A stretch of 64,000 nt of DNA from Pontederia crassipes. Lineage: Eukaryota; Streptophyta; Magnoliopsida; Commelinales; Pontederiaceae. A program made the translations under genes and the position numbers. Location of the stretch: positions 16,752,001-16,816,000 of the forward strand of contig JAUKPH010000019.1 of NCBI GenBank assembly GCA_030549335.1, read 5' to 3'. Below the pieces are notes generated by a model. It saw nothing but the letters and a program-made list of their open reading frames with translations. It did no database searches and was not told the DNA's origin. Shown here in pieces: positions 4-44,632 of this stretch. Each line of letters begins with the position of its first letter. The stretch's first letter is position 1.

Positions 4-1710
4 AGGTTATTTCTTTTAACCACCCTTAAACTATTACGATTTTTTAAATCTAACTTCAAACGATGAACTTTATTTTTTGGATCCTTAAGCTATCATAATT
101 TTTCCAATTTGATTCTTCCGTTCAATTCTATCAACTTCTCGGTTATCTTTAATTTTTCGTATTTGTGAAAAGTCAATTATACCCGTTACAAGTGTTAGTC
201 TTTTGATCTGGTCACCACCGGTCAAGATTTAGCCATCCCCTCAATGAGTTTTTCGAACTTGAGCGTGATCTGGGGTGGCAGCTTCATTGGGGCTCTTCGG
301 TCTCGACGGCGGCCGAGATCCATAAGCAGAGCATCGGAGACCTCGTCGGAGCTCTAGCTCGCTCGTCGGAGCGGGTTGGAGCAACGGTCCGCCCGAACCA
401 GTAATAGGTCGAGGATGGCGTCCGTGTTGAGAAGGACGATGGAACTGGGACTGGCAGACGCGGTTGAGTCGTCGTCACCACTGTCCAAGATGCCGGAGGT
501 GGACACGTCGACCATCTCGTTGACGTCCATTTCACCCACCCTCCTTCCCTCATAACTGAACCGATCCGGTCGACGAAGCCACCGACCCAGTCCGATGTCC
601 TGGACGTAGATCGGATCTCCATGAATCGTGCCGAATTCGGCATCGGGGACGGAGGCGATGACTCGGTCTCAGAAAAGGAGGACGACAATGACGAGGAAGA
701 CGAGAAGGATGAAGAGAACCGATGGCGGCGATCGGAGGCCGCGTCACTCCAAAACTCGATCCAGCGGGGCGTGCGTGTGGCGACGGCAGTCTCGACGCTA
801 CGGTGGGTGGATGACGTCGATGAAGGCAGCAACGGTGACTTCTGATGCTGATGGCAGCAAAGTGGAGGCGGAGGCGGACAGGGTGGCTGGAAGGCGGAGT
901 GCCATAGGAAGAAGTCAGTGAGGTCGACGCCGCAGCAGTGGATCTGGGAATCATCAACGAAGAAGACAGGGTTGCCGGCGATATAGGGAATAGTGGGGAT
1001 GTAGCAGCGCTCAAAGACCGGGATGAGGATAGGGGCGCGGCGGAGAGCGGAGCGCGCGAGGCGGAGTGCGCGGTCGGGGTCGATGGGTCGAGGGCCCCAG
1101 GAGCGAGGCCAGAGGGAACCGCGAACCACCTGCAGGGACGCGGTTGCCAGAGGCAAGTCGAATGCGAGATGGGGGAGCTTCGGGCTGCCGCCCAAGTCGT
1201 CGGAGGAGTTCCGTCCATTCAGGTGATTCCTTCAATCCGAAAAGCCTAGGGAGGAGGGTAAGGCAACGGCGAGGAGCGCGCGGAGGTCTGGAGGAAAGGT
1301 GAAGCTGAGGTTGGCCTCGAGACGCGCCAGCTTGGCGTCGGAGATGGGCGGCATGAGCGGCACTGGGGCTGCTGCGAGGTGAGCAGCAACCGACGTAGGG
1401 AGAGGAGAGGGGGGCCCACCTTCGTCCGGCGTCCCCATCTCTCCTCTCCCTGCGTAGGAGGACCCCCCCCACCTTTGTCCGGTGTCCCCTCTGCTCTCTC
1501 TCCCTATGCACAATATTTTTTTTTCGCGTAAGGACATTTTCAACTTTCACAAATGCGAAAAATAAAAAATAACAGAAAAGTTGATGGAATTGGATGGAAG
1601 GATCAAATTGAAAAAATCATGATAATTTAAGGACGTGAAAAATAAAGTTTGTAGTTTGAGGTTAGATTTGGAAAATTGCGATAGTTTAGGAGTAGTTAGA
1701 GGAAAGTTTC
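4..1710. mobile_element. Pack-MULE 1: Mutator-like non-autonomous element carrying a host gene copy
   Basis: The two ends are inverted copies of each other over about 185 bp. Shared blocks, read inward from each end, include TAAACTAT, AAATCTAAC, AACTTTAT, TTTGATYCTTCC and TTCTCKGTTATTTTT-like runs. The right end stops at 1710 by comparison with the sister element at 29459-31105, whose border is fixed by a 9-bp duplication. The left border falls at the window edge, so the left target duplication cannot be read and this copy's duplication is unproved. Between the TIRs there is no transposase; the cargo is a minus-strand host gene copy (222-1354). Long TIRs plus host-gene cargo are the definition of a Pack-MULE. 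What is seen: inverted ends and gene homology. What is inferred: MULE membership, from the sister copy. Confidence 0.8.
222..1354 (-). pseudogene. Captured SMI1/KNR4-domain-like gene, near full length, frame-broken
   Basis: Read on the minus strand, the stretch starts at an ATG at 1354 (MPPISDAKLARLEANLSF), continues with FPPDLRALLAVALP, then a well-kept middle (WPRSWGPRPIDPDRALRLAR, RRAPILIPVFERCY, AGNPVFFVDD, CCGVDLTDFF), then IEFWSDAASDR, WVGGFVDRIGSVMREGGW, VDVSTSGILDS, LLLVRADRCSNPLRR, EVSDALLMDLG, and ends LIEGMAKS with a stop at 222. This order and length match the plant family of SMI1/KNR4-type proteins of unknown function, from N to C terminus. The parts lie in different frames: there are at least three frame changes (near 1235, 540 and 370), and the 1133-bp span is not a multiple of three. 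It is therefore a dead copy with the stop codon about 20 bp inside the left TIR. Family naming is from memory of the conserved blocks. Confidence 0.72.
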
Positions 1711-3640
1711 AACATAACACATAAACATAAAGTTGTTTGGACATATTAAGACAACTCGAGATAAGACTTCCACAATATAACATAAAACATATCTTGGGCT
1801 TAAGGTCCAACCAAGAATTCACCACCGTTAAGTCTATGCCTCTGTATCTATACGGATATATGAAGTACAAGAGAGATTTTCCTATTAGACAATATCGACA
1901 TCCATGCATGTATGCTTTTTATGTGGCATGACACATACAATTACGTAGCATTGATGCACATGCATCTTATAAAACATGTTATACAATCATTTGTATCAAG
2001 ATAAAATTTTGCATAAAATATGGAACACCAATTTTAAAATCACATTATAAATTTATCTTACATATTTAAACTTCTTGATCATAAAATATCATATGGCAAG
2101 TGATAACATTTTATTGCATTCTTAACGATGCAATGATTAACATTTTCATCTTTATGTTCATAATATTATATCTTAATTATCTCATATGTTTTTCTCCATT
2201 TTATCTTCATTTTTCATCTTTTTAATATAACTTATTATCTTGGTGATTGAGAATCATATTGACTTATCAATATTAACTAGCTAGGCCATAGTATCGTCTT
2301 TTTACTCTTGTAAATTTTTACATATATTGTGTAGTATTTTTTAATTAAAACTTTACACTAGTACTATTGTCCACCTCATTTTCATGAAACTTTACACTTT
2401 TATTATTCGACACTTCACCTTTCGTATACTTTATACATTTGCTAACGAGTGTAGACTTAGTTTACTTCAAATGATAATAAGAAGTCATTTCCATCAATCA
2501 ATCTTTCAAATTAGAATCATCAATACACAATCATAGTAAACATGTTTTATTTTTTAATTACTAATTTCGACTGCCCATGCATCACTACTTATATGTGATA
2601 ACAAAACATCAAACAATTGATAAGATAATGCTAGATATTGTTATAATTAAAAATAGTCAATTAACAGTTTAATAAGATTTTATTAATACATAACACATTG
2701 ATTATTGTTCATAACAGTGCCCATTTGATTCGCTGTAGATAAGTCGGATGTACTATGGCCCAATCGTAGACACACGACTAAAGAGTGCAAGTTTAAATCC
2801 TCTTGCTATGATTTATCATCATGTGCTACTACTTGATTGAGAACGCTATGACATGTCTGTAGGGCTGTTTTTAAAGGATGCATTTCATAAACACATTGTT
2901 ACGATTTTCATTTTGCTTTATTTTATCTAATGGATGAAATTAAAATAATGGTCCGTTATTTAAAGAAAGGACGCACACATTGCCTTTTAGTTTCACCTTT
3001 GGATTAAAATAATGTCCTTTAAATTAATCCATTGGTTTTTCATCAGTTTAAACACAAACTCATGGGTTAAAAAAAATCAGTTTGCTCACCCTAAAATTTG
3101 CCCTCACTCCTCATGTCTCTCCTCTTCCTCAATCTTTGTCCTCTTTCTCCCTTGATTTTCACCATCGACAGTAGTGTAGGTGATGTCAAGATGATAGCAT
3201 GAGAGGTGGTAGTGGCACAAGGCATTGACGACGTAGTGGCAATGACAATGAGAAAATGATAGCATTAATTGTGGCGTAAGGGTATCAACAACACAATGAG
3301 ATGACAAGAAAACAATGACGTTATCACATTGAGGTTATGGCATCGAGATGTCTGGGTGATGTCATTGTGGTGCCATAGTCAGGAAGAAAGATCGTGAGAG
3401 AACCATTAGTCTTTTTTCTCAAGAGAGATGTGGAGAGAGATTCAAATCTTTTTTGTTTGGAAGAGAGAATGGGGGAGGAAACATAGTCAGTTAGATAGGA
3501 AAGGGTTTTTTTGTTTGAGGAGAATATGGTAAAGACTTTTTTTAGAGAAGACATCTCATTATCTTTACTAATATGGGTATTATAAAACAACCTCCCATCG
3601 ATCCGTTTCCTAACATTCGCCTCCAACGCCAACGTTTATG
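1711..3640. other. AT-rich spacer, no gene seen
   Basis: No reading frame with a recognisable domain, no splice-consistent exon chain and no RNA gene were found. Part of it (about 2860-3060) resembles a small inverted-repeat element, with TTTAAAG-type blocks facing each other, but no duplication could be fixed. Composition is strongly AT-rich throughout. Confidence 0.5.
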
Positions 3641-5050
3641 GCGTTGGGTCGTCTAGTTCTTCGACCAAAAACCCTCGAAACTTGGTAATCACCGTCCAAA
3701 GCAAGATCGTTTATGGGGAGTTCTTGTCAGGTATCATCCTCTCGATGCTCATGAAGGTCACTATGAAGTTGGGAATCCTTTTGTTATACTCTTGTAAATT
3801 ATTGTCAGTTGACATGGACATGGAACTAGCCGCCAATACAACTGTGGACATGATAGTAAATAAAGCCACGTTGTCTCATCGACAACGATGTTGCATGCTC
3901 CTCCATGAACTCGCACGATGAGGGTGGTGCATGGATGGTCTAATGTTTGGAGCCCACTTAACATCAATGTCAATGTTGGACAAGCAAACAACCTAAGGAT
4001 TAGGACAGCCTCAATTGAAGCTAACATAAATCATACAACCGTGTTGAAAGTAGCAGTCGACCACGAGAATTTTGAGGACATGGGAGAGTCATAAATCACC
4101 ATGCAAAGACAGTGAAGTAAGGTCCAATTAGTGGCACAGTGGAAGATGGTTCTTTGGAAGGCACATGTGCACTAGGTGACTATAGGAAATGCTTACTTCT
4201 CTTTTAATGGGGCTAGGACTTGGATCACTACAGCTCTTGCTCTCATAATATTAAATTTTAGAGATGCTCGTCCTTATTTTAAGAAGGTAATGGACTTGAG
4301 GGATCTCAAAATCATGCCATCATTCTAGATTGGCAACCACATTCATTAATGTCCACCGTGAATGAAGGAATTCCTACAGCTTTTGTATCCGGTGCTCCTA
4401 ATTTGTTGTGGGATGTTTGTCACTGTATTGGAATACCAAGTAGTTTGTGTGATTTGATGGAGCCTCTTTCAGGGATTGACAAAGGCAACACACTTGTAGT
4501 GATTGCTATTGTAATTCTTGTCCTCTCAAAATGTTGCATCAAATGTACCAACTAGCGAACAAGCTTTAGATGCATGGTGTGAGTTCATATATACTGCACA
4601 AAAATCATTCCCTCCACATGAATTTGATTTTTGTATCTCAAGTGGTGGTAACCTTGAACATTTTTTGTGTTCACTGAAAAAATCTAACAATGCACATAAA
4701 CTACCTTCCTGATCTATTTGGGTATGTATATTTTCTCCTTCACTTGGAGCTCATGTGGTAGATGTAGCAGAGAGATCTCTCCTGCACAACAAACCAAGGC
4801 ATACTCCTGCACAACAAATCAAGGCACATATCATACTAGCATCAATGAACATGAACCCTGGGATCAACCACAAACTTGAAAGTCAGTGAGGACGAGGTCA
4901 ACTTCTCGGCCACACCCTCTTTCCTCGCTCACTTAAAGTTTGGGATGCTTTGAACCTTCGTTGTGAAAAAGAATGGGACCAACATCTATATGACCCAAAA
5001 TTCCATCTGTGGTTATTATTGTTTCCATAAGAAGAACATTAAATGTTGTA
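3640..5050 (+). pseudogene. Unidentified decayed coding stretch
   Basis: The base composition here rises above the surrounding AT-rich DNA and plus-strand frames read like protein in short runs. Examples are FVSGAPNLLWDVCHCIGIP and LCDLMEPLSGIDKGNTLVV (4349-4555), then EQALDAWCEFIYTAQ, FPPHEFDF and GGNLEHFLCSLKKSNNAH (4518-4712), then AHVVDVAERSLLHNKPRH and AQQIKAHIILASMNMNPG (about 4740-4870), and KEWDQHLYDPKFHLW (about 4970-5020). The frame changes between runs and stops intervene, so it is not a working gene. I do not recognise the family. It could be an old host gene copy or a fragment carried by a transposon. Confidence 0.4.
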
Positions 5051-6810
5051 CATAGTACATGTAAATGAAACTCAGAACCTTTATTTAGAAATCATGATAT
5101 TGTGACATTTGTGATTGTATTACTCATATAGTACCAAGGTGTTATATGTTGCAACATACAAAGTTGATGGTATAAATAGTCAAGAGATGCAGGTTGTTAA
5201 GGAAGATTGTGATATGCTTATATTAATAACCAACTCAATATAAAGTCATAATTGCCAAAGGCATAAAGTTGTCATAACATAGTGCAACTGTTGAATCGGA
5301 AGAAGTCGCCTAGAATATACGTTGATGCTCACTAGTCACCGACACTACTAATCTATTAGCCAATCACCAACCGGCGTACTATACTTGCCCATTCATGTAG
5401 AGCTTCTTTGCGGACATAGTTGATAGCAACGAAAGGGGGATGAGAGAGATGGAGAGAACACTATTGAGAGTAGAAAGTGGAGAGTGATAACATCTTCTTT
5501 AGGATATCCATCACCACCTTCTTGCCTTTTGAGTCCCCCATTTGTTGGCATCTCATGATATGCCAAAGGTAACTAAGTTAGGGGCATTTCATATGAGTTA
5601 CTTCAGATAAATTATTCGTTATTTTATTTAAATTTCTCATGATTCACCACATTATCTCATTTATTGTCTGATAATTTTAATTACTCTAATAATTTTAATT
5701 ATCACCCCATTGATAATTTTAATTGCACCAATAATCCAGATAGCAGATAGAAAAAATGCATCTTTTCATATTATCAGTTACTTTAAATGCATTTTCATGA
5801 AAATATTCACTCAATCAAAATTTTATTATTAAACAAATATCGTTTAACTCTATATTTCTTATTGTTTGGAATCTTTTACAAATAACTCTTAATTTTAACT
5901 TATATTCTTTTATCTTTATTTATTTTTTTATTTTTTGGTTTTTATTTATAATAATATATGACCAAATCTAAAATATTTTTTAGGTATATGTTAATAATTT
6001 TCTCTACAATTTAATTATTAGTATTTATCAAACATTATAATGTGTTATTAATAGTAATTTAAATAATGATAATATATTTTAGTGATGATCTAAATTACTA
6101 ATTAATGAAATTAGTAATGCACCAAAATGTTCCTCATATATTTTTTTCTAAGACCTCCTTCTCAAGGTGAGTTTTCCATATTTACTTCCAACAAAGCAAC
6201 ACATTTAGCTGGATGAACATGGAAATGCATGATATTTTTGCTTGTTTTTTTTGTGAAATGTGAGAAAATAAAGTAAACCTAGGACATGGGAAGAAGATTG
6301 TTGAAAATCTTTGAGGGTGATGATTGCAAAAGTTATATTTAATCCAATATTTGAGAATAGGTGTCGATCATTTAACTGCTCATGTGGTGCTAAAAGTTAT
6401 AGGCACTCATGAAAAATAATTATTTTTCCCCAAGAAATAATTTGTACCAATTATTTGAGTGAAGAATTCTAACCTTCATTTATAACTCGATATCATTTGA
6501 ACGAGAAAATAGAAAATTTAAAAGGCAAAATTTGTTCTTCAAGCTAAGTATTTGGAACTTTGACTCGAGGAAAAATGTAACAACAATGAAGGATTCTAGT
6601 AGAGATAGAATTTCGATCGGGTTGGTATAATTCAAAATTGTATCATATCGAAAGTCACTTGGGCAACCTGACATAATTTGAGCACGATCTTCACCATGTC
6701 AATAAGTTCGGATTGGACTCTTCATTATTTTTACTATGAATATTATTTAAATTTATATGTATATATAAAGTATTTAATGTCGGTGTCAAGCGCTTTCCGT
6801 ATGAAGCGTG

Positions 6811-7110
6811 TGTCAAGTTGCTTTACACATATTTTTCTTTATTTTTTTCGATATCTTTCTTTATTAATAATTTACATGATTATTTACGATAACAAAATTA
6901 TGATTAAAATAATCAACAATAATTATATTCATCATTTTTATAAATTTACGAACTTATGCACTTTGTTATTCTTCATAATTGATATAACCATTTTAAATAA
7001 CTTTTTATGTTATAAAATTATTTTTGTTATTATCAATGATCCTTTAAACTATCGATAAAGAAAGATATCAAGAAAAATAAAAAAAATATGTGTAAAATCG
7101 CTTGACACTT
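6811..7110. repeat. AT-rich inverted repeat (foldback)
   Basis: A stretch of about 57 bp near 6811-6868 (GTGTCAAGTTGCTTTACACA, then TTTTTCTTTATTTTT and GATATCTTTCTTTAT) returns in inverted orientation near 7050-7110, with a few mismatches. The 180-bp loop is almost pure A/T. Weakly similar direct copies of GACAYAATTTGRGCACG lie outside it near 6672 and 7268. It may be the core of a small DNA element, but no target duplication could be fixed. Confidence 0.4.
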
Positions 7111-7119
7111 GCATTAAAC

Positions 7120-8408
7120 TTATATATATATTTATAACAATTAAATAAATAATATGCAACACACATATATATAATATTAATTACTAATCTAGAAAAATAA
7201 AAAAAATAAAAAGGGTCACATTGGGCTAGTAAAAAATGCTGACCAACTTCTTGTTGGACAACTTGACACAATTTGGCACGGACCTAACTCGTGCCAAATA
7301 ATTACATTACTAATTATTTTATATTAAAATTTTAGATAATTTTAACGTTTATTATTCTTAATCTTATCTATTTTAGCTGCTATCATTTTTGTCTGATAAC
7401 TTCCATTTATTCTTGTATTTAAAATATTAAAAAATAACTAAGCCCTCGGGTCAAACTCGGATCCAAGTGATTGGTTTGAGTGGGCTAGAATCATCTCTGG
7501 GATGGGCTAAACAGTCATTATGGAACACAGATGGAAGCGATGAATCCAAAGAAAATAGTTCAGTAAGACTCATTTTATTTCTTTTTTTTTTTAAAATATA
7601 ATAAACTTTTTAGAGAATAAGAAAAAATCAAATAGAATTTGAGGAGATGATGACGTGAAATTGGGTCACATTTGGTTTATCTTTTAATTTTAAAAATATA
7701 CATGCAATTTAAAGATTAATAATTTATTTGTTTTTTTATTAAGTGAAAATATATTTAACATTGAGGAAAGATAAGTGAATAGTCTTAACCTGGAAAGAAA
7801 TACATCTTAATAGTGACAGATTTTTTACGATTGACTCGTAGGATGGGTATTCTGAGCCGATTTTTTTTAAAAATTTTATACCGACAATATTTTACTCGTA
7901 AGTATTTTAAGATAGGGACTCCTATCCGACTCCAGGGAAAAAGTAAAAAAAAAGGTACTTCTCTAATAGAAGGAAATGGATCGACTTAAATAAAATCCGG
8001 CTAAAAAATCACACAAGCCTGAAATTTTATTTTTTATCTGTATAATAATAAGTTCATAAATAACCAATTCTTTTATTTTTTTCTAATATACTAATGTTCT
8101 TATGTTTCATCATGAAATTATTGTTTTAATTTAAATTTTGCAGTACTATATATTTTATATTTATTTATAAAATTGAATATATTTATATTAATGCCATTTA
8201 ATTTTTTATTTTTTAAATATTATTATATTAAAGTAGGGGCCCAAAAAATCATTAAAAAAAGGATAAGAGGATAATCTTCACCAAAATAGAATATGTGACT
8301 TTTTAAAATCCAAAATTCAATTTGATCCGTGTTTTTTTTTGCCCTTTTTTAAAGATGAATTGAAGGGGAAACATTATATAAAAAATAATAAATGACGTTG
8401 AAAATAGC
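7120..8408. other. AT-rich spacer upstream of the KH gene
   Basis: No coding or RNA feature was recognised. The stretch is made of A/T runs with a few short GC islands (for example near 7440-7510 and 7840-7930). Its last few hundred bases should contain the promoter of the KH-domain gene. Confidence 0.45.
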
Positions 8409-8415
8409 TATAAAA
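8409..8415 (+). promoter_or_regulatory. Probable TATA box of the KH-domain gene
   Basis: TATAAAA lies 221 bp before the chosen ATG at 8630 and marks the change from AT-rich spacer to a GC-rich transcribed leader. If it is the TATA box, transcription starts near 8440. The upstream ATG at 8415 would then lie before the transcript start and would not be translated. Confidence 0.5.
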
Positions 8416-8629
8416 TGGAAAACGGGAAAATTCTAATCTTGAGACGTAGCTGGAAGTCGTTCCCCGCCGCCCTTCTCTGCACCCTTTCGGCCTTTCTCGC
8501 AAAACCAGTCGTTAATGCTGCGAGGAAGAGGCCGACGAATCCACTAATACTCGACACTTCTACATCACTTCTTCTACTGCTGCTGCTGCTTCCCTACGCC
8601 GTCTCCACCAAATCCTTCGCTCTCCGCCC

Positions 8630-15028: not shown

Positions 15029-16490
15029 TCCGATGGATTTTGCCGTTTAGTTTGTTGTATTCAAGCATGTTCGTCGGGTTATGCGTCACTGGAGTATATG
15101 TTTTATATATCTTTTTTAAGATCTTTTGTATGAATTAACTGAACTGCTCTGCGATTAGCGTCCAAGAGGGATAACCTAGGTGCACGTGTAGCATTATCCG
15201 AGGCTAAGCTATGTTGCCAGGAGTTCCTTTTGTTGTTACTGATGGCAAGTTTTGATCGATCTAGTTGAAGGAACCTTGTTGAACATTAATTTAATTCATG
15301 AGCGAAATTTCGTGGGTTTGACATTGGTAGTATTATGCGTTATCTGCTTTCCCTCTCTTTTGCTTTTATCTTTGTTGTGCCTGGCATTATGGCTTCCTGT
15401 TACTGTCCAACAAGCGGTCGGATCACTACCACGTTGTGTAACATCCAGGAAGACAGCCACCAGAGGCCAGGCATTTTATTGCAGATGAGCAACCTTAGAT
15501 TTTGATGTCTTTCATTTTAGAGAGTTGAGATGTTATATATACACACACATATTCACCTTTTTACCTTTTTACACACACATATTCACCTTTTTACCCGCAT
15601 ATTGTTTATTTCAATTGCAATGACAAATAAAGAAAACTGTAATATGATGGTTTTGGAGGTCGGCCTTGTTCGTTACTGTAAAACTTTTAGCAATGAGCGG
15701 ATCCGTATCTCTTAGACTACGGCTATGCTCCGGTCACTGTCATGCAGGTACCTCAACCTACAAGGTTCGCTGCCATGTCCCTGTCAACTGCACTTCGGGG
15801 TTTGTAACATGTGAAATTGTGATTCGTGAGGAGCTTCTTACATAATTGGAGTTGTAATATAGATAGGTTTTAACTTTTTTTTTCTCTATATATTAGGTTA
15901 CCTACTATAAACAGTCTTCAACATGAAAATTTCAATTATTGTATGATTAACTTAACAATTAGATTTCATAATAATCATGCGTAAGATTACCTTGTGGCAA
16001 TAAATTTACTTATAATAACTAATTAAAACTATATGTATGCACATTTGCATGCTCCTTTAACTCTAGCATTCCACTTAGTTGTGTTTTTAAAAAAAATTAA
16101 AAAAAAACTTACAGATGAAACTTGTTTAATATCACGTCACCTTCGTACACTGCCCTCCTTTTCTGGGAAGAAAGGAGTGGTGGTTGACAATGGGGCTACT
16201 GGAAGCCTCTATCTATTCACCAACTTCCACTTTCGTGCCCACGCGTCCACCATCGGGACTCCCGACCAGAAGAAAAGTGAACTCCGATTCGCACCCGAGT
16301 CAGTGCGCACCACCCGGGATCCAATTTTCACGCGTCTGGCCTATCGAGTAAACTGTGTGGTGGTGGAGTGGAGATTGGTTGGTCCCATTCGACCGGGACC
16401 CACCTCACACTACCACAGACAGCAGTCCATCCCAATAATTGACCCATGACCCATGCAGATGCAGGTAAGTAAAAATAAGCAACATAAATT
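15029..16490. other. 3' region of the KH gene and spacer
   Basis: The first part should be the 3' UTR of the KH gene; no clear polyadenylation signal was chosen. Near 15535-15595 a 35-bp unit with ACACACACATATTCACC is present twice in tandem. The rest up to the glycine-rich gene has no recognisable gene. The reading frame at 16033-16449 is treated as spacer or promoter sequence. Confidence 0.45.
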
Positions 16491-16493
16491 TTG

Positions 16494-16535
16494 CATGCAT
16501 GGCCGCGCGATCCCTCCATCTGATTTCTATATAAA
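16494..16535 (+). promoter_or_regulatory. RY-type motif and TATA box of the glycine-rich protein gene
   Basis: CATGCATG (16494-16501) is the RY core bound by B3 factors of the ABI3/FUS3 type in other plants. It lies 27 bp before TATATAAA (16528-16535), which is 62 bp before the ATG. The spacing puts the transcript start near 16560. Tissue specificity from the RY motif is inference only; the motif is short and can occur by chance. Confidence 0.5.
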
Positions 16536-16596
16536 CCCCCTCACACGTCCCCTCTCCTTCCCACGTCCCCAGCGCGGAGCAAATCAAACTGACGCC

Positions 16597-17241
16597 ATGG
16601 CCGCAGCTCCGAAGGTCGCAGCCGTCGCGCTCTTGCTGCTGCTTTGTGCTGAGGCCATTTCGGCCGGGAGGGCTTCGCTTCGTGTCACTGGAAAAGGTGG
16701 AGGTAAAGGGGGAGGACGTGGAGGTGGTCGCGGTGGGGGCGGCGGCGGTGGTGGGGGCGGGTCAGGCTTTGGCAGTGGGTCGGGCTATGGCTCAGGGTAT
16801 GGTGGAGGCGGTGGCGGGGGAGGAGGAGGGGGAGGGGGAGGAGGAGGAGGTGGAGGTGGTGGTGGTGGTGGAGGTGGGGGTGGCGGCGGCTCGGGCGGTG
16901 GTAGTGGCTCCGGTTATGGGTGGGGGTATGGCTCTGGCGGCGGTAGAGGAGGTGGTGGCGGTGGAGGAGGTGGGGGAGGAGGAGGAGGCGGCGGCGGAAC
17001 GGGCAATGGGAGAGGGTTCGACGGCGGTGGCAACGGTAATGGCAGTGGGAGCGGATCTGGGTATGGAAGTGGCGGCGGCGGCGGAGGAGGAGGAGGAGGA
17101 GGAGGAGGAGGGGGGGAGGGGGGGGGGGGGGGGGGGGGGGGGGGCGGTGGAGGCGGGGGCGGGGGCGGCTCGGAATTTGGACAAAGGTCTGGTTACGGAT
17201 CAGGGTACGGACGTCGTTTTGGCGGTGGATCACGGGGGTAA
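16597..17241 (+). CDS. Secreted glycine-rich protein
   Basis: A single-exon frame encodes 214 residues. The N terminus is a signal peptide: MAAAPK, a hydrophobic VAAVALLLLLCAEA core and a likely cut after ISA near residue 23. The mature part is mostly runs of glycine broken by Ser, Tyr, Phe and Arg in GSGSGYGSGYG-type blocks, and it ends QRSGYGSGYGRRFGGGSRG. This fits the class I plant glycine-rich proteins, structural proteins of the cell wall in which tyrosines can be cross-linked. There is no RNA-recognition or cold-shock domain. The start is supported by the TATA box 62 bp upstream and by the signal peptide directly after it. The long G-only run near 17107-17144 may be mis-sized in the assembly, which would change the length or the frame of the last 40 residues. 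The C-terminal Tyr/Gly blocks are still in frame here, which argues that the frame is right. Confidence 0.82.
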   Translation: MAAAPKVAAVALLLLLCAEAISAGRASLRVTGKGGGKGGGRGGGRGGGGGGGGGGSGFGSGSGYGSGYGGGGGGGGGGGGGGGGGGGGGGGGGGGGGGSGGGSGSGYGWGYGSGGGRGGGGGGGGGGGGGGGGGTGNGRGFDGGGNGNGSGSGSGYGSGGGGGGGGGGGGGGGEGGGGGGGGGGGGGGGGGSEFGQRSGYGSGYGRRFGGGSRG

Positions 17242-17877: not shown

Positions 17878-17882
17878 TATAT

Positions 17883-18361
17883 TCTAGAAATTAATAAACA
17901 TAATAATATGGAGGAGGTTCACGAAGTACCTCTTGCGGAAGCGAATCGTTCACGCGGCTTCTCCACGAATAAGCTACGGATTGCACTTGTACGCGTGATC
18001 GAGAATCAAATCACGTGAAATGGAACATAATACCACGACTCAAATGCAAAGGATATAAGAGAGAGCAATGCTAATTGAATGAAGGGAGCAACCACACAAG
18101 TTCAACTCACAACACTTCACACTTGAATTTGCACTCATCCTTTTACTCATCTCAAGTGCACCAAGGGACCTCTATTTATAGAGGTGCTTGGTCACAAAAG
18201 GCCAAGCAAGGAGTGCTGCCGAGAAGTGTGGAGAGGCATGGCCTTCATGCATGCTGCATGGCAGCCATGCCTCGCATGGCAGCCATGTCTTGGCATGGCC
18301 ATCACACCATGCCACGGTATGGTTGCCATGCAAGGAGGCCCATGCGTGGGCGATTCCAACA
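17883..18361 (-). repeat. Left (3') LTR of the copia element
   Basis: About 479 bp and collinear with 25029-25511. It carries CTATTTATAGAGG, read as a TATA region on the minus strand, and a cluster of overlapping GCATGGC/GCCATGC palindromes near 18236-18330. Confidence 0.92.
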
Positions 18362-21300
18362 ATCTTTCACTCGCACATGATGAGTTCCATGCATATGCTC
18401 GATCTCTTCATGTCTCATGAAAGCAAATGAGTCGTGCGACCCACGAGTACAAGCACAAATTCAAAATGTGGGAGCCTTTGATTGTGACCGATTAAGGATG
18501 CACAATCGCTCAACCATCTCGAAAGCCAAGACCATGACCTGTGATGGATCCATGATTGCTCAATCGATCTTTGAGCCATTACTATGTCTCACATAGTTGC
18601 TCAACATTTTGTGTGATATACATCGTGTGTGCTATAACCATGACTTATATGGCTTTATCCTGCGAGCCAAATCGTGACTCACACAATCGCTCAAGCATGA
18701 TGTACTCGTTATGCCTCAGATTTGCTTTGCTGCGTTATCTAGACACGCCATGTGTATGACACTGCGGTAATTAATTCTGTATGCAAAACTATTTATCCTA
18801 CACAAGGAGAATAGCTGGCCAATTGCATGCAGAACTCTCATGCAGCTCTCAATAAATCTTTCCTTTGCACTCATATTTCTCAATTCCGATCGGCTGCTTT
18901 CCTAGACACGACTCAGCGGACCTCTTCACTTTGGGTCTTGGAGTATCATGTTAAAGTAGCAACACCAATCATTACTTTGAAATATAGCCAAAGTTCAAAG
19001 AGCAATAACTAGACCGTTATGTCTAGAGAGACTCACACAATGATGAAGATCAACATCGATTTGTCATTTCTCAGGGTCGTCTTAGCATACTTGGTACAAA
19101 ACACAAGTATTGCGATGGAAACTTCCACTAAGGAAGCGTGTGTCTAACTCAAACACCGCACAGATTTAAGTCCAGTCGCCCTTCATTGGCGTCTGACCTG
19201 AGACATCTAACCGCTTGCCATCATTTGATGTCAAAGCTAGAGTCCCACATCTGACTATCATCATCAGACTTCATTGAGTTACCAAACTCATGTTTGCATC
19301 ATCTTGAACACATCAAGGCGGTTTAGGTCATTTCTCATAAGAAATATTTAGGTCTAAACCATTTCTTCCCCGCGTGCAATCACATAAGCACCGGAGGCGA
19401 TTACTCGTGTGAGTGAGTAATCTCATGCTGATGGACACACTTAACACATGCATAACATAATTCTCTTATGAAAAACATATTTTCATTAATATGATTAACT
19501 TTGGGTACATATTTCTTTTTATATTCTACGCAGTCCCAGTGCATGTACATGTCTTAAGAATACATCTCTAGGTAGTGGTTTGGTGAACGGATCAGCAATC
19601 ATATTGTGTGTAGATATGTACTCAACAGAGACCTCCTCTTTCACATCTTCATTTCTTATAAATTTGTATTTGATGTCGATATGCTTTCCTTTGCAATGAT
19701 ATTTTTCGTCCTTCACATAGGCAATCGCTGCTTGATTGTCGCAATGTAAAGTCGTCTTTCTCATTGCAGCATCCGAAAATTGCAGATGTTGAAGGAATCT
19801 TTTTAACCATAGGGCTTCTTGCACTGCGGCTGAATATGCCACAAATTCAGCCTCCATCGTAGACAATGCTATGCATTCTTGCTTTTTGCTACTCCATGTG
19901 ACAGCACCATTACTGAGCAAAAAGATATATCCGGAGGTGGATTTTCGTTCATCAATGTCCTGCCCATTCGACGTCCGTATATCCAACCAGCCTTTAGCTT
20001 CCTCCGTGATAACATAAAGCAAAGTCAGCAGTGTCTTTGAGGTATCTCATGATTCTCTTCACAGCCTTCTAATGTTGGCGTCCTAGGTTTGTCTAATATC
20101 GACTCACTAGACCCACTGCATAGCATATGTCCGACCGAGTACACAACATAGCGTACATCAGACTGCCGACTGCACTTGCATAGGGGACTGAAGACATCTC
20201 TTTTTGTTCTTCTACGGTCTTTGGGCACATATTGAGGTTCAAAGTCTCGCATGTCGCAATAGGAGTATCAATGAGTTTGCAGCCATCCATCCAAAATCGT
20301 TCTAAAATTTTGTTAATATATGCCTCTTGCGACAAAGCAAGAAATCTCTTAAAACGATCTCGTTAAATTTTCACACTCAATATGAAGGCTGCTTCTCCCA
20401 TGTCTTTCATCTCAAAGACAGAGGACAACCATTTTTTAATGGTGACCAAAAACTCCATATTGTTCCTGGCTATCAAGATGTCGTCTACATATAGAGTCAT
20501 AATGACGAGCATATCCTTGGATTTATAGACATACACGCAATAGTCTTCATCAATCATTTCAAAACCATATGATATGATTGATGAAATTTAATATACCATT
20601 GTCTAAATAATTGTTTAAGTTCATAAATGGACCGACGCAACCTGCAAATTTTGCGCTCTTCTCCTTTTACTATGAAGTCTTCAGGTTGTTTCATATAAAT
20701 TTCTTCATCTAGTTCTCCATTGAGAAATGCAGTCTTTACATCAATCTGATGTAATTTCAAGTCCATATGTGCGACAATTGCTAGGATAAGGCGAATAGAA
20801 GAAAACCTTACAACTGGAGCAAAGGTTTCTTCATAATCAACACCCTCCTCTTGGGTGAAGCCTTTCGCCACTAAGCGAGCTTTGTATCTCTCAATGGATC
20901 CATCACTGCCTCATTTTATTTTAAGAACACATTTGTTCCCAATTGCTCTACAACCAGGCGGGAGATCAAGTCCCAAACTTGATTTGCCTTCATAAACTGT
21001 AATTCTTCTTCCATTGTCTTAATCCACTTTTCTTTATAATAAGACGAGAGAGCCTCATTGATTGAATTAGACTCAAGCTCTTCTTCAGGATCTACTATAT
21101 GAACTTCATGAATTCCTTCGATGTCAAATCGTCGGCGTGGGATGCTCTTTCTAGTAGTCCTTCGAAGTGAGCACTCTGGATTCTCGTTTGACGACGAAAT
21201 GCTCCCACTCGGATCAAGGTGTGATGAAGGGACAAACTCTTCTACACTGTGATCCGCATATGTCGCCATTATGAGATTCCTAACTTCTTCTAAGTGAAGT

Positions 21301-24300
21301 GTTCTATCAATCTCGCATTGCTTTGGAAAATTTTCCTCTATAAATGTCACATCTCTACTCTCAATTTCTGTAATAATTCCATCATCCCTTTTCTCCTATG
21401 AACACATAGTCTTTAGAGGTTTCATGATATCTGATGAAGATACACTTCTTGCCTCTAGGGCCCAACTTTTCATACTTTTGAGAGTTGTCAAGGACATAGG
21501 TGGTACATCCCCATGGACGTAAATAACTTAGGTCAGGCTTACGACCTGTCCAAAGTTCGTAGGGAGTGGAAGCAAACTTCGATGGTACGCGGTTGAGTAT
21601 GTAGGCAGCTGTAAGCAATGCATCTCCTCAATACGAAATTGGTAAGTTTGCTTGTGCCATCATAGACCGGACCATATCGAGTAGAGTACGGTTTCTCCTT
21701 TCCGCAACATCATTTTGTTGTGGAATTCCTGGAATTGTTAGTTGTCTAACTATTCCTTTTTCACCACATAACTTTTTGAATAAATTTGAAAGATACTCAC
21801 GACCACGGTTGGTTCGCAAGGACTTAATCTTGCGATCTAATTGATTCTCAAGCATGTTCATAAATCGCACAAAGCAATCTATAGCCTCGGACTTATAAGA
21901 CATCAAGTATACGACCCCATAGCGTGAATAATCATCAATAAATGTGATGAAGTATGAGAAACCGTGTCTTGCTTGGACAGTTATTGGACCACATACGTCC
22001 GAGTGGATTAATTGCAATGGAAACTCAACACGCTTTCCTTTTCCAAATGGTTTTCTTGTTTGCTTGTCAGCTAGACATTCTTCACAAATTGGCAGATTGA
22101 CTTTAGCGAGGGAGTTTATGAGTCCTTCTCTAATTAGTCTATTCATTCGATCTTGTCCTATATGTCCTAGTCTGACATGCCAAGTCTTGACACTTTCATT
22201 CACATCAACGGATGACATAAATGAATAACTACTAGCAACACATGCAGTATTAAGAACATAGAAATCATTTTCAAGAAAGCCATTGCATATATGAACACCA
22301 TCCATTGAGACGTTCAGATGTTTAGAGCCAAAAGTTATTACATATCTATATGCATCAAGAGTGGATACAGATATTAAGTTTCGTCGAAAATCAGGGGCAT
22401 ACAAAACATCGTGGAGGTAAAGGATTTTTCCATTGCTAAGTTCTAACTTGCAACTTCCTATCCCTTTGACTTTCACTCTTTTATTGTCTCCTACGTAGTA
22501 AGTTCTAACTTGCAACTTCTTATCCCTTTGACTTTCACTCTTTTATTGTCTCCTACGTAGATGTACTTAAAGACTGCACTGAGTCGACGAAACTCGACAA
22601 AAATCTCACATTCCTTGGCTACGTGGTCTGTTGCTCCGGAATCTACAATCCACGAAGGATGAGTTACAGCAACCAGAACACAGCTAGAAACATACGCAAA
22701 GAAAATATGGTCAGGACAAACCTTCTTCGGCTCAGTGCACTCACGAGCGAAGTGACCATGACTACCACAATTGTAGTATTTCACTTTGCTTTTATCCACT
22801 TTGCCACAACGCTTCTTCTTTTTGCGCTGTTGGTGCTGAACCTTCTGTTGTCCACTATATCCGCTCCTCTTATTGGGGTGCGACTTACGCGACCTCTTGC
22901 ATGTGGAACTTAGGCCATGCTTTCGTCCACCTATTTCAGTAACTAATGCTTGACTAGAGGATTTCTGAGATTCCAGTACCTCATCCTCCATTTCTAGGTG
23001 ACGAGCCACATCATCAAAATTATTTATATTGTCATTATGCATCAGGTTGACGCGCATGTGTTCCCAAGATCTGGGAAGAGAGCGGATAACTGCTTGCACT
23101 TGCTGCTCATCAGTGAGCACATGTCCGGCATTCTTGAGTTCGCGTATCATGTTCATCATTTCCCTTAGGTGCTGCCTCATGGTGTGATTAGGCCGCATCG
23201 TATAGGAATCAAATTTGATGGTCAACATCCTCAACTTGAAAGTTGATGTGATACCGGACTTGTTCTGGATAGCTGCCCACATTTCAAATGCCGTTTGATA
23301 AACCTCAAATTTGCACACAAAAGAGTTCCATTGTACTCAACAACAGAATGCGAGCAATACGACTCTTTTTGGACCAGGCTCGAAATGCCTTAGCATCCCT
23401 TCTATGTTGGGCAGTATTACCAAGTGCCGGTTGTGGCATGACATGTTTGATGGTCTCTAAAACATCTTGTTCCTCTAAAAAATACTGAACTTTTCGATGC
23501 CAAATATCATAATTTTTACCGTTCAGTTTATCCCCTTTATTCAGGTCGACAATTATGGACTTTGATGCCATGGTCAATAGTCTAGGTTCATTAAGAGAAC
23601 AAAAGGAATTACGTTATGCATGTCTTAATTTGTCACAAACATTCAAAATAATAAATGACACAATTCAAGAGTAATGACATCGAGAGGTCTCTACGCTCCC
23701 ACTCATCTCCCACTATTCCTAGGATAATTACCATTTATTAAATTAATAATGTGACAAATCGTTTCCAAATTTTGGATCAACTGATAATCCAAAAATATTA
23801 TGTCTTATGTTTTCTCAAGTAATTAGACATTAATCACTTCATGTTTCATTTATTATGTCTAAATAGTTTAGAAAAAATTAGCATAAATTTATTTCTCTAA
23901 GTTTGATGAAACATGATTATCTATTATGAGAATGCATGATAGAAAAAATTAACTAATTATCAATTTTTCTCGTATAATACACATGACATGTTTTTCTTTT
24001 GTATTTTTCACTAAGGAAAAAAATAACTATGCAAATCATACACGTGATAAAATTTACAAAACATACATGCCTCTCGAAAAACATATACAATTAATTACAT
24101 ACTCAAAATTTATGTAATTAATTTTCTTTCATGCATATGTTCAATTTCTCATAAAATTAATTGCATTAATTAGCACTAAACTGTAAATGCAATTAAACTT
24201 ACATATGCATTTATATTCTGATAGGAAACATCTGGAAAAAGATTTTAACATTTATCCCTATTTTCCATAATTTTCTATCAATTTCCAAAGAAGTAATTTA

Positions 24301-25028
24301 ATTGCATAAATTGTCACAAAGCAATAAAATGCAATTAAAATTTCTATAATATTTCATAAAATGAAAGAAAACTTTAGAAAAAAATTTCACAATTTTCCGT
24401 TACTTCTATAATTTTCTAGCAATTTATGATGTTTTCTGACTTTTCAGAATTAAAAAAAATGGGAAAAATATCCTTCTGGGCTGCACACAGCATTGGCCCA
24501 CTTAATCGGGCCGCGCGCCCGCACGTGTCGCGTGCCCGAGCGCGCGCCCAGCTAGCCGCGAGCCCTCGCGCGCCGAGCTGGTCGCGCATGGCCGCTGGGC
24601 CACTAACTAGCGCACACCACTGGGCCGCGCTTGTGTGCGCCCGTCCAGGCCGTGAGTCAGATTGCGCCGAGTCGGCTTCCAGCCCGCCTCTTCCGCTCGG
24701 CCGCGAGCTTACGTGCACTATTAGGTGCATCTCCGGGCCGCCTGCATGTGTGTGCGCCTGCTGGGCCTCGTGCCCGCATAAGGCGCTGGGCCGCGTGCAC
24801 AGCGCCCGTGCGCGCGCCACCTGGCCGTGCCTTTCCGCACGCTGGGCGAGCGAGCCGGGCCATGTGCCTGCACCCAGCTGGGCCACACGCCCACGCGCGA
24901 CCAGCCAGGCCATAAGCCAGGCAGTTCTTCTGCCTTTTTTTTTTACAGCCGAAAGGTTTTCTTCCTTTTTTTTTAAGAATGAATTTTTAAAAAATTTCGG
25001 GAGTAGCCGACATAGCTCTGATACAAAT

Positions 25029-25511
25029 TGTAGAAATTAATAAATATAATAATATGAAGGAGGTTCACGAAGTACCTCTTGCGGAAGCGAATCGTCCACG
25101 CGGCTTCTCCACGAATAAGCTACGGATTGCACTCGTACGCGTGACGGGAACCAAATCACGTAGAAATGAAACACAATACCACGACTCAAATACAAATGAT
25201 AGAAGAAAGAGCAATGCTAATTGAATGAAGGGAGCAACCACACAAGTTCAACTCAACACTTCACACTTGAATTTGCACTCATCCTTGAACTCATCTCAAA
25301 TGCACCAAGGGACCTCTATTTATAGAGGTGCTTGGCCACAAAAGGCCAAGCCAAAAGCCAAAAGTGCTACCGAGAAGTGTGGAGAGGCATGGCCTTCATG
25401 CATGCTGCATGGCAGCCATGCCTCGCATGGCAGCCATGCCTTGGCACGGCCATCACGCCATACCATGGCATGGTGCCATGCAAGGAGGCTCATGCATGGG
25501 CGATTCCAACA
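25029..25511 (-). repeat. Right (5') LTR of the copia element
   Basis: About 483 bp, begins TGTAGAAATT and ends ATTCCAACA on the plus strand. The primer-binding site follows directly on its inner side, and TATAT follows on its outer side. Confidence 0.92.
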
Positions 25512-25848
25512 TATATGATTATGATAGCCACGCCTTCTGTGTGCTCTGGAGATTTACTTGCAAAATGGACAGCAAAAACTCATCTGTAGCATTCTTTTTT
25601 CTCCTCGTTGACATTTATTTCGTGTGCCATGTAATGAAGTGAGATCAATGTGTCAATCATCAACCGTTCAAGCGTAGGGTGGTTGGCAATGGGCACGAGT
25701 TGGCAATACTTTTATCAATCCATGATTGATCCAAGTAAACGAAGCTTCGGTTTCTTACCACCAATATGCTGATTTCAATCTTTCTTTTGCTGTCGTGTAT
25801 TACCGGGCAACATTTTTTTCTCATTCAATTTGTGACACTAATTATAGT

Positions 25849-28800
25849 TGTAACATGTCGAGATTTTTTTGCATTTGTCTAAAAGACTATCTCAGTGACT
25901 GTCAATTTTATTACTAGTCAATATATTGATTTATAGTAGCAAAATAATAAAATATAATAACCTTTACAACGTGCGGAATCATTAATCCAATGGCAGTGGG
26001 TTCATATGCCCTAGACCTATATAATAATGGACATGTATATGTGCATATATATCAGTTATCAGAGGAGTCATCAATCGTCTCGCCACCGCTATGCATCCAT
26101 CTGTATAGTTCCAAATACAAGGATAAAACTTAATATACGTAGGGTCTCACATAACAATTATCAATATCACTTATGATTAATATTAATATCAATACTATCA
26201 ATAAACACTTATCTATAAGAAATATATGATTGATCATGACAATTATCCATTAACACTAAACAATAATCCAATTGATCAACCATAATAATTATCTATATCA
26301 TCAATTTATCGATGAATAATATCAATTCAATTTCATATCAATTCTATCTCGATTCGATTTAATATGATTATTAATTCAATATCAATTATCTTTAATCAAT
26401 CAGTGAATGCCACAATTCAATTAATAATTGATCAATTTTCAATTGGTCAAAGGTCGGCGAAGGCTACAATTCAATAATTAATCATTCAAATAACAATTAT
26501 CAATTGATCAAATTATTTTCCAAAAGTCGATGAAGGCCACAATAACTTATCAATTCAATTATATAAACAATTTACCAATTCATTTATCAGGCACATTATC
26601 CATCAACTATAAAGACACAATTCGATTATCCATCAGCCACGAGGGCAAATTAGTTATCCATCAATCACAAGGGCGAAATTAATAATCTATCAACCACTAT
26701 GGTGAAATTAATTGTCCATCAGTCGCTTTGGTGCAATTCAATTACCAATTCAATTCGATTCAATTCAATTACCAATTCAATCTTTAGTGTTAGAATCAAT
26801 CCTTTTTGGGTGCAATATGAGAGCTTTCTATTATTAATGACACCATGTCATTTTATGTCAATCATAACTTCGGATATGATGGGGGACGAAAGACTACACC
26901 TAGGACAATCGTAGTTTTTATGCTATCTGTCTCATTTGATTATCCATCAGTCCGAAGGTGCAATTAGTCCGAAAACCCATTAGCCTGACGAATTCATCAG
27001 TTCAAAGGCGTAATTAGTCCGAAAATTCAATCAACCTGAAGGCGCAATCAGCGATATGAGCTCCAACAATTTTGTAATTTTTTATTTCAATTACTTAAAA
27101 TGTCTATTTTTATCGATTTATCTTTGGCATGATTAGATATGATAATAATCAATCGAATATGATAACATTTTGATCAAGATCAATCAATAATAAGGTCAAT
27201 AGATCAATACGATAATTAATATCATGATTGAGTGTAATAACAATGATAATATGATAACATTTTGATTACTTAAAATGTTAATTTTGTAATATGATAACAT
27301 TTTAATAATAAAAAGGTCAATTTTGTAATTTTATTTCAATTACTTAAAATGTCTATCTTTATCAATTTATCTTTGGTATGATTAGATATGATAATAATCA
27401 ATCGAATATGATAACATTTTGATCAGGATCAATCAATAATAAGGTCAATAAATCAATACGATAATTAATATCATGATTGAGTGTAATAATAATAATAATA
27501 TGACAATCTGATCAAGTATGATCATACTGAAATCAAGGATGTTAATCAAATGATCAACAATGATTAATAATCATAACTATTCAATAAAATATAAATTAAT
27601 TCATAAAAATATATTTTTTATCCCCAGAACTTGGCCCGCGTCGGATGGAACCTGGGCCGTATTCTCGATGGTCCAATATGCCTTGGCCGGGTCTCAGGTC
27701 GGGTTGCCCGATTCACATTCTACGTCCATCGCGCCAAAACACGGATCATGTTTATATGAACTCGGCCTAGTCTTGTGTTGTGCTCTATATAACCCAGATC
27801 AGGTTTATACGAACTCGGTCTGGTCAAATCCTATTCGCACCCGGGTTGGGCTAGGTTCTGCCTTCGTTGAGAAATGATGATTCCGACATTAGTTTTCGAT
27901 CATTCAATTATCCAATCAATGCAAATAATATATCAATATATCTCTATATAAAGGGTACATGTCGCGAAAAATCGACACCATGGAGATCCTCTTATGTACC
28001 TTAAGTTGGTTGAAAAACTAATTAGGAATCCTTGATGGCTGCACGAACGGCGATACTTTGGTCGATGATTTCTTCGCGATGAGACCTTGGACCTCATGCC
28101 TATCATTTGAATTTTGTTCTCCTCTATCGGGGCTTCAAGACGATATGCCGATCACGTTCTCAGATGTATCGATTTGTGAAAAAACGGAGGAGAAAGAGGA
28201 CACTCTCGTACAGAAATTCTGTGAAGATAAACAATAGTTTCTATTCACCCTTTAAGCTTTATTTATAGTTCTTAAATATGATTTTTTACTTAAACATATC
28301 TTGATGCCTGAAAGTTGGATAGGTTGGCCCCTACATAAGGACTATATTACCCCCAATTTCTATGAATTACAAGATGCACATTAAATAATAAGAAACTAAT
28401 GTTTCCTTAACATATACGACATGGTTCCAAATTGCATTCAAGTCAAGGAACTTTTTTTTTACGTTCTGTTTAACATGAAAGAGAGTAACTGGACTCTAAT
28501 TCATATTATGGATAGCCTAAAGAAGCTTCATTCATATTCTCTAATTTGGAAAAGAGGCTATCCATTTTCTATGAGCATAAAGAATAGGTTGGCTAAATAA
28601 AAAAAGTTCCGCATCATGAACTTTGTACCGCGCGCATTGGGCCATAGATTATTTCTCCATCAATCATGGTCATTCATTGTTAATTACCTTATGTTAAAAA
28701 TTCATATTTAGTTAAATCTAAATTTTACTAATTATTTCATAATTATACATATCAAACATCTATCTCTACTTAAATTCTTTTCTATTTTTTCCATAACTTT

Positions 28801-29282
28801 TCTCAATTAAACTCTACTTTCGCTTTATCATTTTATTTCTTCATTTTCTTAATTTTCTTAGTTATTTAATTTCATAATATTTTATCACCTAATTTATAAA
28901 TTAAAATAATAATAAATATTATTTTAATGATCAAAATATTTTTAAGTCATAAGATTCTCAATCCTATCTTATTTGGAGTCCTATATTTACTAAGCATTTT
29001 TTTTAAAATCTCAAGTTAAATTGAAATTCTAATTTTAATCTACTTATAATTCCTACTCTCAGTAAGATTTAATCTTTCTTTATTTTTTTCTTCCTAATCA
29101 TACTTTTAATCCTACTCTAATTCTAATTTATAGGATTAGTCTTTCTTTTTATTCATATTCTTTTTTCAATTATATTCATATTTTTTTCTCAAATTTTCCT
29201 TTGATCATCTTCAATTCATTAAGAATTCTAATTAACTTATAAAATTACTATATTACCCATCACGAAATCGTGAGATGTTACA
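25849..29282 (-). mobile_element. Solo LTR A (3.4 kb) of a long-LTR, probably Ty3/gypsy, family
   Basis: The piece starts TGTAACATGTCGAG and ends GAGATGTTACA on the plus strand, the TGTAACA/TGTTACA ends common in gypsy LTRs. It is flanked by ATAGT (25844-25848) and ATAGG (29283-29287), a 5-bp duplication with one difference. It is collinear, in inverted orientation, with 57859-61150. Shared landmarks are the TATA region (near 28257), CACAGAATTTCTGTACGAGAG (27-28 kb side), the GGCCC-rich block near 27630-27870 and the GACTCCTCTGATAA region near 26050. No internal domain or primer-binding site adjoins it, so it is a solo LTR fossil. The end-to-end length is in the range of Tekay/Del-type LTRs, but the family is not proved. 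Confidence 0.8.
27089..27501. repeat. Tandem duplication inside solo LTR A
   Basis: A block of about 165 bp starting TCAATTACTTAAAATGTCTA occurs at about 27089-27253 and again at about 27337-27501, nearly identical. The step is 248 bp. The other LTR copy lacks it, which explains much of the length difference. The surrounding DNA is a degenerate TTGATATTGATCAATT-type simple repeat. Confidence 0.75.
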
Positions 29283-29458
29283 ATAGGCAAGTTAAGATGC
29301 ATTCTTCGTTTAAATCATATTGTGTTTGCACTTAATTCCCCAACTTAATTAATGAAGATATATATTTTTTTATAACAATTTGCTTCGAAGAACACCCACA
29401 CAATGATTTAGCTATTTCCTTACCATTCGATTAATTAATGAGTAACTAGTTATATTAA

Positions 29459-31105
29459 GGGTTATTTCCTCTAACCTCTCTTGAACTATCGCAAAATACC
29501 ACATCTAACCTTAAACTATGAACTTCATTTTTTGGGTACCTAAACTATCGCGATTTTTCCAGTTTGATCCTTCCATCCAATTCCGTCGACTTCTCTGTTA
29601 TTTTTTTTCATTTGTGAAATATCCATCGTACCCCTACGTTAGTCCACTTTAATATAAAAAATATAATAATGAATATAGAAATATTTTTTAAAAAAAAGTG
29701 ACGACGGGGGCAGCGACCCCCACCCGCCATCCTCCACTCTCTTTCCCGACGCCGGGAAATAGAGGGGAGGAGGGGGGAGGGGGGGTCGCCGCCCCCCTCT
29801 GTGTCGTCGTCGACGACGACGCAGGGGGCGACGACCGGGGAGGAGGGGGGTCATCATCCCCCCTCTGCGTCGTCGTCGTCGGCTATTGGGAGGAATTTTG
29901 GACACGAGATTTGGAACTTGTTGGTGCCAGCGGGGAAATTAGGGTTGGTGTTCATGTATTCCAGTGGGCATGCAGATGGTTTTGCGTCTCTTACCCTTCT
30001 TGTTTGAGAAGTGAGGATTTCAGGGCGGGTGGCGAATTCCGCTGGAAACTAGGGTTTTGGGTTGTTTTGCGGTAGAAGCGGCGAGATTGCTCCTGGGGAT
30101 CCGTCTGAATCAATCCCTATTAGCTTAAACGTCCAGTTTTGGTAAGAATTCCATCTTAGCGATCTGATTTTGACTTACATCCATGTGCATGAGTGTTGGA
30201 TTTTGTTGGTATTTTTTGTGCGTTATTTGCAGAAGGATAAAGAGAAATTGAAATCCACGAATTTTGTGTGCGTGAAAGTTGATTTGTGTGCCTCTAGAAA
30301 CTATTTTCTGAATGCACCGAAGATAAGTTTGGCATTGTCGTATAGGAAGCCTTCCAACAGATGCCAACTAGATCTGTTATTTGCGATGATGGGGAAAACG
30401 CAGAGGTTCTCGAAAGGGTACTCATCAGGTTTTGTGCCAGATTATCGGCACGCAGTAGAGACTGTGGGCGAGTCAGATGGCTTTGGCAGTTCTGGTCATG
30501 TAGACTCCGAGGACTCATCTGCCCCAAAGAGGAAGTGCATAAGCCTAAACGCTGACAATCGTGATAGTTTCAATGTACCTTTGGAAGTTCTATCACTGTC
30601 AAAGATGACCAAGTCAGAGAGGAAGGCTCTTCAATTGAGACTTAGAGAGGAGCTTGAGCAGGTTCAGATTTTCCAGAAGAAAATGTCCATGAGGAGTGTT
30701 GCAGATGTTAATGTGGTTGCGTTATCATCCTGGGGGGTGTGGGGGGTGCATGATTTGATTGTCGACCGCCCCCCGTGTCCCACTCCTCTCCTTTATTTCC
30801 CGACGTCGGGAAAGAGAGAGGGGGGGGGGGGGGGTCGTCGCCGCCCCCCTCACTTTCTTTTTTTTAAAAAAATTATTTTTATATTTATTATTATATTTTT
30901 TTATATAAAAGTAGATTAACGCATGGGTATAATGGATATTTCATAAATGTGAAAAATAAAAAATAATGGAGAAGTCGACGGAATTGGACGGAATGACCAA
31001 ACTGAAAAAGTCGCGATAGTTTAAGTACCCAAAAAATGAAGTTTGTAGTTTAGGGTTAGATGTGATATTTCGCGATAGTTCAGAGGACGTAAGAGGAAAT
31101 AACTC
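29459..31105. mobile_element. Pack-MULE 2: Mutator-like element carrying a GTE gene fragment
   Basis: The element is bounded by a perfect 9-bp target duplication, TTATATTAA, at 29450-29458 and 31106-31114. Nine bp is the Mutator-superfamily signature. TIRs begin GGGTTATTTCCTCTAAC on the left and GAGTTATTTCCTCTTAC on the right (read inward). They stay similar for about 310 bp, through an A/T block into a GC-rich block with a TTTCCCGACGYCGGGAAA palindrome (near 29745 and 30797). The outer 190 bp match the TIRs of the element at 4-1710. No transposase is present. The cargo between about 29880 and 30735 comes from a bromodomain-factor gene. Confidence 0.92.
30386..30735 (+). pseudogene. Captured 5' coding part of a GTE8/GTE10-type transcription factor gene
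   Basis: From the ATGs at 30386/30389 the frame reads MMGKTQRFSKGYSSGFVPDY, RHAVETVGESDGFGSSG, APKRKCISLNADNRDSF, VPLEVLSLSKMTKSERKAL and LRLREELEQVQIFQKKM. This is the conserved N-terminal part of plant GTE8/9/10/11/12 proteins, before the bromodomain. The homology stops near 30735, where the TIR-proximal GC-rich block begins, so bromodomain and C terminus are missing. Upstream cargo (about 29880-30385) looks like the 5' UTR of the same gene and keeps a GT-AG intron (about 30142-30232, GTAAGAATT to TTATTTGCAG). Capture therefore happened at DNA level, not through mRNA. The frame is open through the whole cargo and into the right TIR (stop at 30919), so a chimeric peptide is possible. Confidence 0.8.
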
Positions 31106-31147
31106 TTATATTAATTAATTAGCTGATGAGAGTAGAAAGCGTGCACG

Positions 31148-37460: not shown

Positions 37461-37555
37461 CACAAAATTTTCTCATCGGTTTCTCGTCCTTGGAGCACTC
37501 TTTTTCGCTCCAATTTCCTCCGTCTTTTGATCCTTGACTTCGATTGTTCCGATCC

Positions 37556-44321: not shown

Positions 44322-44632
44322 AAAACTTTCCTTTGAATTTGAACTTTTTTCCTTTTTTTATCCTTTCACGTGCATAACTTTCCAATTTTAATATAAAATC
44401 ATTAAACATTCAATCCCCTAATAAAATCTTTTTATTTGAATTTGATTTTTTTTTCCTTTTTTTGTATCCTTTCACGTGCATAACCTTCCAATTTTAATAT
44501 AAAATCATCTAAACACTCAATCCTTTAATAAAATCTTTTTATTTGAATTATTTTCCTTTTTTGTATCCTTTCTAACCTTCCAATTTTAATATAAAATCAT
44601 TTAAACATTGAATTCGCTAATAAAATCTTTCC
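44322..44632. repeat. Tandem repeat, three units of about 105-115 bp
   Basis: Each unit holds CTAATAAAATCTTT or a close variant, then TTTTCCTTTTTTGTATCC, then AACCTTCCAATTTTAATATA. The second unit keeps CACGTGCATAA, as does the first; the third has lost it. Confidence 0.75.

Follow-up and report, generated by a model that had tools for sequence, protein, structure and literature searches.

The 64,000-nucleotide stretch of Pontederia crassipes DNA analysed here, which we call the window, very probably contains two non-autonomous Pack-MULE-type Mutator-like elements, A (about 5-1710) and B (29459-31105), which belong to one broad lineage of terminal inverted repeats (TIRs), carry different captured host sequences and are by now probably inert. 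In this respect the first-pass annotation, which had described a pair of Pack-MULEs with arms that are related and cargo that is not, is upheld by the structure of both elements, while several of its more specific claims have to be narrowed in the way described below.

Element B is bounded by arms of about 330 bp, the left TIR at 29459-29785 on the plus strand and the right TIR at 30769-31105 on the minus strand, which align to one another with 82.4% identity over 341 columns. The left arm has an AT-rich outer part in common with A and a GC-rich inner part matched only by the right arm of B; this inner section of about 90 bp, present in both arms, has a GC content of 0.713, the core arms having 0.37 and 0.35 and the cargo 0.446. 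The nine bases TTATATTAA lie on both sides of the element, at 29450-29458 and at 31106-31114 (plus strand), and agree at 9/9 positions at the fixed register of the element ends. Counted at this register only, a match of this kind has a chance of about 2e-5 as calculated from local composition, and in an empirical check 23 of 517,550 local 9-mer pairs matched. The duplication shows that B was inserted by transposition, and the perfect copy which had been reported is indeed present; it had also been offered as proof of the capture of a gene, but it neither proves nor dates such an event. A looser finder, in which the ends could be shifted by up to 12 bases past the BLAST ends and duplications of 8-11 bp with at most one mismatch were accepted, preferred the 10-bp ATTAATTAAT (29430-29439 and 31110-31119) over TTATATTAA. 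The right copy of ATTAATTAAT overlaps the 9-bp duplication, and this candidate was rejected because the arm homology does not extend that far; as evidence, the match at the fixed register alone was used. Such a chance match implies that short duplications are weak evidence, as they arise easily in AT-rich flanks, and the flanks here have GC contents of 0.23 and 0.27. On the left of B, a diverged repeat, found in inverted orientation at 27958-29130 and 57939-58813 (about 29 kb apart, 72-73% identical in two aligned pieces), ends its first copy some 330 bp before the element; on the right, a gypsy-type retrotransposon (about 31148-36797) starts about 33 bp past the duplication.

Element A is likewise an inverted-repeat element, with arms of about 180 bp. 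The left TIR (5-186, plus strand, starting at 4 or 5) was placed by alignment to the right arm and to both arms of B, and the right TIR occupies 1523-1710 on the minus strand, the two being 77.5% identical over 173 columns when aligned and 80.7% over 161 bp by BLAST. The outermost five bases of the right arm have diverged and are unlike those of the other arms, and therefore the 3' end of A is uncertain within 1705-1711. The left flank within the window consists of four bases, so the result of the loose finder, which gave no duplication for A, refers to these four bases. In the register 5-1710 they compare as AAAA against AACA, three of four being equal; nevertheless, two other right-end positions that were tried also gave three of the four visible bases, which makes this match uninformative. 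If a target duplication does flank A, its left flank would be expected to end in AACATAACA or in a sequence much like it.

Mutator-like elements are recognised by a target site duplication of 9-11 bp and by long TIRs, typically of 100-500 bp. The arms of A, at about 180 bp, and of B, at about 330 bp, are both within this range, and B has TTATATTAA on both sides. A Pfam scan revealed no transposase family in the interior open reading frames (five overlapping references in A, three in B), nor was a transposase found at E 0.01 among 52 of the 204 stop-to-stop open reading frames of at least 70 residues in the window. The statement that neither element has a transposase is thus sound for the interior frames scanned, although not as a claim on every frame. 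Since no transposase with these arms was seen, the Mutator assignment rests on the lengths of the duplication and of the arms.

Judged by alignment, all four arms are related, far above chance. Their outer parts show pairwise identities of 71.8-87.0% over 167-174 columns, and the local alignment scores of the six arm pairs range from 433 to 634; against 1881 random segments of the window (2000 draws, from which those starting in or beside the elements were removed), the scores of the right arm of A had their median at 93 and peaked at 217. When a profile built from all four arms was searched against the whole window up to E 10, it recovered these four and no further copy. In addition, a search of the window for inverted repeats (at least 40 bp, span of 200-20,000 bp, BLAST E 1e-4) returned three pairs: those of A and B, and a weak one of 53 bp (56291-56343 and 58177-58229). 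A 26-base arm pattern, exact to both arms of B and not to those of A, had 0 matches in viral and 0 in prokaryote contigs, as is to be expected of plant DNA. Of the approximately 190 bp of TIR that had been assigned to both elements, the outer 160-185 bp are common to them, whereas the arms of B are longer.

The first-pass annotation had also spoken of a single family, and as regards related arms and one TIR lineage this can stand; nevertheless, the four aligned A-B arm pairs are 71.8-79.0% identical, each below 80%, and none of them reaches the 80% of the redundancy rule given in PMC3310237 (80% similarity over 80% of the length). On alignment, A and B would share one TIR lineage, for which the label of one family is borderline. 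The reading in which they belong to different MULE families, with only an old common ancestry of their arms, would make the label an overstatement, and we consider it a serious possibility, if not the probable one. These identities, which lie below the 80% of the rule, agree with it, as does the GC-rich inner part of the B arms, for which no match was found in A. Against it, the two arms of A are as divergent from each other as from those of B, so that decay alone could account for the distance between the elements, and the best local A-B pair by BLAST has 80.1% identity over 161 bp.

The interiors under these related arms are unrelated, as had been proposed: a self comparison of the whole window (E 1e-10, matches longer than 80 bp) gave no common match of A and B outside the arms. 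In A, the GC content of the interior is 0.609, compared with 0.28 and 0.30 in the arms. Its cargo (222-1354, minus strand) is, from reading frames and a weak Pfam match, an apparent full-length, single-exon host coding sequence of SMI1/KNR4-like type. It starts with an ATG at 1354 and, past a stop at 1232-1234, keeps its frame until a frame change near 536, after which there are a further internal stop at 354-356 and the terminal stop at 222-224. With two internal stops and one frame change the cargo is a pseudogene, and a function for it is not likely. The SMI1/KNR4-like gene reported in A finds a match at the start of the cargo, where residues 3-28 of the first piece (40 residues) align to Pfam SMI1_KNR4 with E 0.00078, but the score of 20.5 bits is under the Pfam cut-off of 25.4. 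When 560-1354 was read through, with X at the TGA, the match weakened to E 0.014; for the second piece, the longer one, taken by itself there was no match to a Pfam family. Up to E 10, the single match of a cargo piece in the PDB was a viral capsid chain (E 0.3), which was taken as chance; moreover, the 224-residue piece had six pattern stretches in viral contigs, none of them confirmed by tblastn. Judged by plant relatives, the pieces are presumably one whole plant gene of the SMI1/KNR4 kind, and if they do form one gene, the cargo of A would be a complete but dead coding sequence.

The cargo of B (29885-30732, plus strand, limits approximate) appears to be the 5' part of a putative host gene. 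The frame begins with an ATG at 30386 and 115 residues are open to 30730, while upstream of this ATG, in the apparent leader, an interval of 91 bp with GT..AG ends (30142-30232) looks like a candidate leader intron. The retention of such an intron-like interval would point to capture from genomic DNA and not from mRNA. As regards function, this cargo might at most be transcribed, either from its own leader or from an arm. As for its identity, which had been given as a GTE bromodomain factor, the cargo may be the amino-terminal region of such a factor, a candidate name that agrees with this region of GTE8/GTE10-type proteins. No bromodomain was found in element B; against Pfam, no family reached the cut-off (IFT46_B_C, at E 0.08, being below it), and nothing appeared in the PDB up to E 1. 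The 115 residues gave 29 pattern stretches in viral contigs, with 0 confirmed by tblastn, and two peptides of the cargo were absent from the literature in a text search. Where the available portions of the literature pair Pack-MULEs with bromodomains, integration sites are concerned.

Other features of the window include domains of NAM (at 37538), ATP synthase D subunit (at 47147) and DUF7074/7075 (at 49312), as well as reverse transcriptase and integrase domains of retrotransposons, which we read as copia and gypsy from the domain matches. By these genes and retrotransposons the window is taken to be nuclear DNA of a plant. KH_1 was matched in three of the 52 scanned open reading frames (best E 1.6e-14), which implies that a KH-domain host gene is probably present in the window. 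At 16450-17241, an open frame that encodes very long runs of glycine is an apparent glycine-rich protein gene, and in very AT-rich DNA at 44332-44630 a unit of 92 bp is repeated in tandem, in about three copies. The copia-type retrotransposon (17881-25511, minus strand) has long terminal repeats (LTRs) that are 92.0% identical over 489 columns, and in its coding region a segment of 62 bp is duplicated in tandem almost exactly (22437-22560). In the gypsy-type element beside B, the LTRs are 87.2% identical over 539 columns and the coding region is broken by stops and frame changes.

These LTR pairs provide a scale for the arms. The two halves of an LTR pair are identical at the start; the arms of Mutator-like elements, on the other hand, need not be identical at insertion and usually differ, and so arm distances are at most upper limits for age and the dating is suggestive. 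With this qualification, the arms of B lie at a K2P distance of 0.147 and those of A at 0.282 (13% and 22.5% difference within the element), both above the LTR-pair distances of 0.123 (gypsy) and 0.064 (copia). Transitions make up most of the differences between arms, with 18 of 22 in B and 30 of 39 in A. In gene-carrying Oryza MULEs, TIR similarity drops with age, according to PMC4858842. The broken cargo of A argues against recent capture in that element, while in B neither recent activity nor the lack of it is shown. The first-pass annotation had seen in both elements a lineage that is currently active in capturing genes, a claim which these results do not bear out and which we regard as improbable. 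Two unrelated cargoes within 30 kb, the perfect duplication at B and the 115-residue stretch that is still open there would agree with such activity, and if the arms were unequal at insertion the distances may overstate the age of both elements. However, in A as in B the arms are further apart than the LTR pairs, the cargo of A is broken, and at the divergence of B nine identical bases are not unusual, since 0.87^9 is about 0.29. A different origin of A, in which it is not a capture but a resident host gene that decayed after separate elements had inserted on either side of it, is scarcely credible. In its favour, the coding sequence seems to run complete from start to stop codon, and the left copy of any duplication would reach beyond the four visible bases of left flank. 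Against it, only 35 bp (187-221) separate the left arm from the stop codon, the two arms are directed outward, the size of A matches that of B, and it is unlikely that two half-elements arrived independently in the right orientation.

The preferred reading, that A and B are both decayed Pack-MULE-type elements, suggests the following course of events. At separate earlier times, host sequence would have been copied from genomic DNA into the space between the arms, possibly through the repair of gaps while the element transposed or afterwards. A MuDR/MULE transposase encoded elsewhere would have acted on the arms and mobilised both elements, and A and B would then have decayed in place. According to PMC3310237 the acquisition mechanism is yet to be understood, and PMC4858842 mentions repair and conversion models. 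As they stand, A and B are two more examples of the well-described copying and moving of plant gene pieces by Mutator-like elements, ordinary members of a kind known in thousands, and the pair settles no open question. Nevertheless, their arm sequences could serve as queries for screening the whole genome of the source species. It is rather doubtful, though conceivable, that one TIR lineage has captured many genes, including a complete single-exon gene from start to stop as in A; if this were true, whole genes, and not fragments alone, would be spread by one TIR lineage.

A table in PMC3310237 gives the numbers of Pack-MULEs: rice has 2853 of them, maize 276, tomato 220 and Arabidopsis 46. The size class that is most abundant in tomato (1000-1200 bp) contains 24 interior types under 9 TIRs, so that an average TIR is found with more than one interior. 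By analogy, two related elements with different cargo would be expected in such a genome. PMC3310237 also describes a preference of Pack-MULEs for GC-rich sequence in rice and maize and the integration of acquired sequence into extended TIRs, and the GC-rich inner arm part of B would fit acquired sequence within an extended TIR. Like the Pack-MULEs of rice, maize, Arabidopsis and tomato, as described in PMC3310237 and PMC8903248, A and B are non-autonomous elements of 1-2 kb with long arms, a 9-bp AT-rich duplication (seen here at B), putative host gene pieces inside, a GC-richer interior and different cargo under related arms. They differ from them in the seemingly whole coding sequence of A, and in no other way that matters. 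In the Pack-CACTA, hAT, PIF and Mariner superfamilies, arms and duplications are shorter than in Mutator-like elements. These other Pack-TYPE elements (PMC8903248) also have inverted arms around captured coding DNA; unlike them, the 9-bp duplication of B and the arms of 180-330 bp point to Mutator-like elements.
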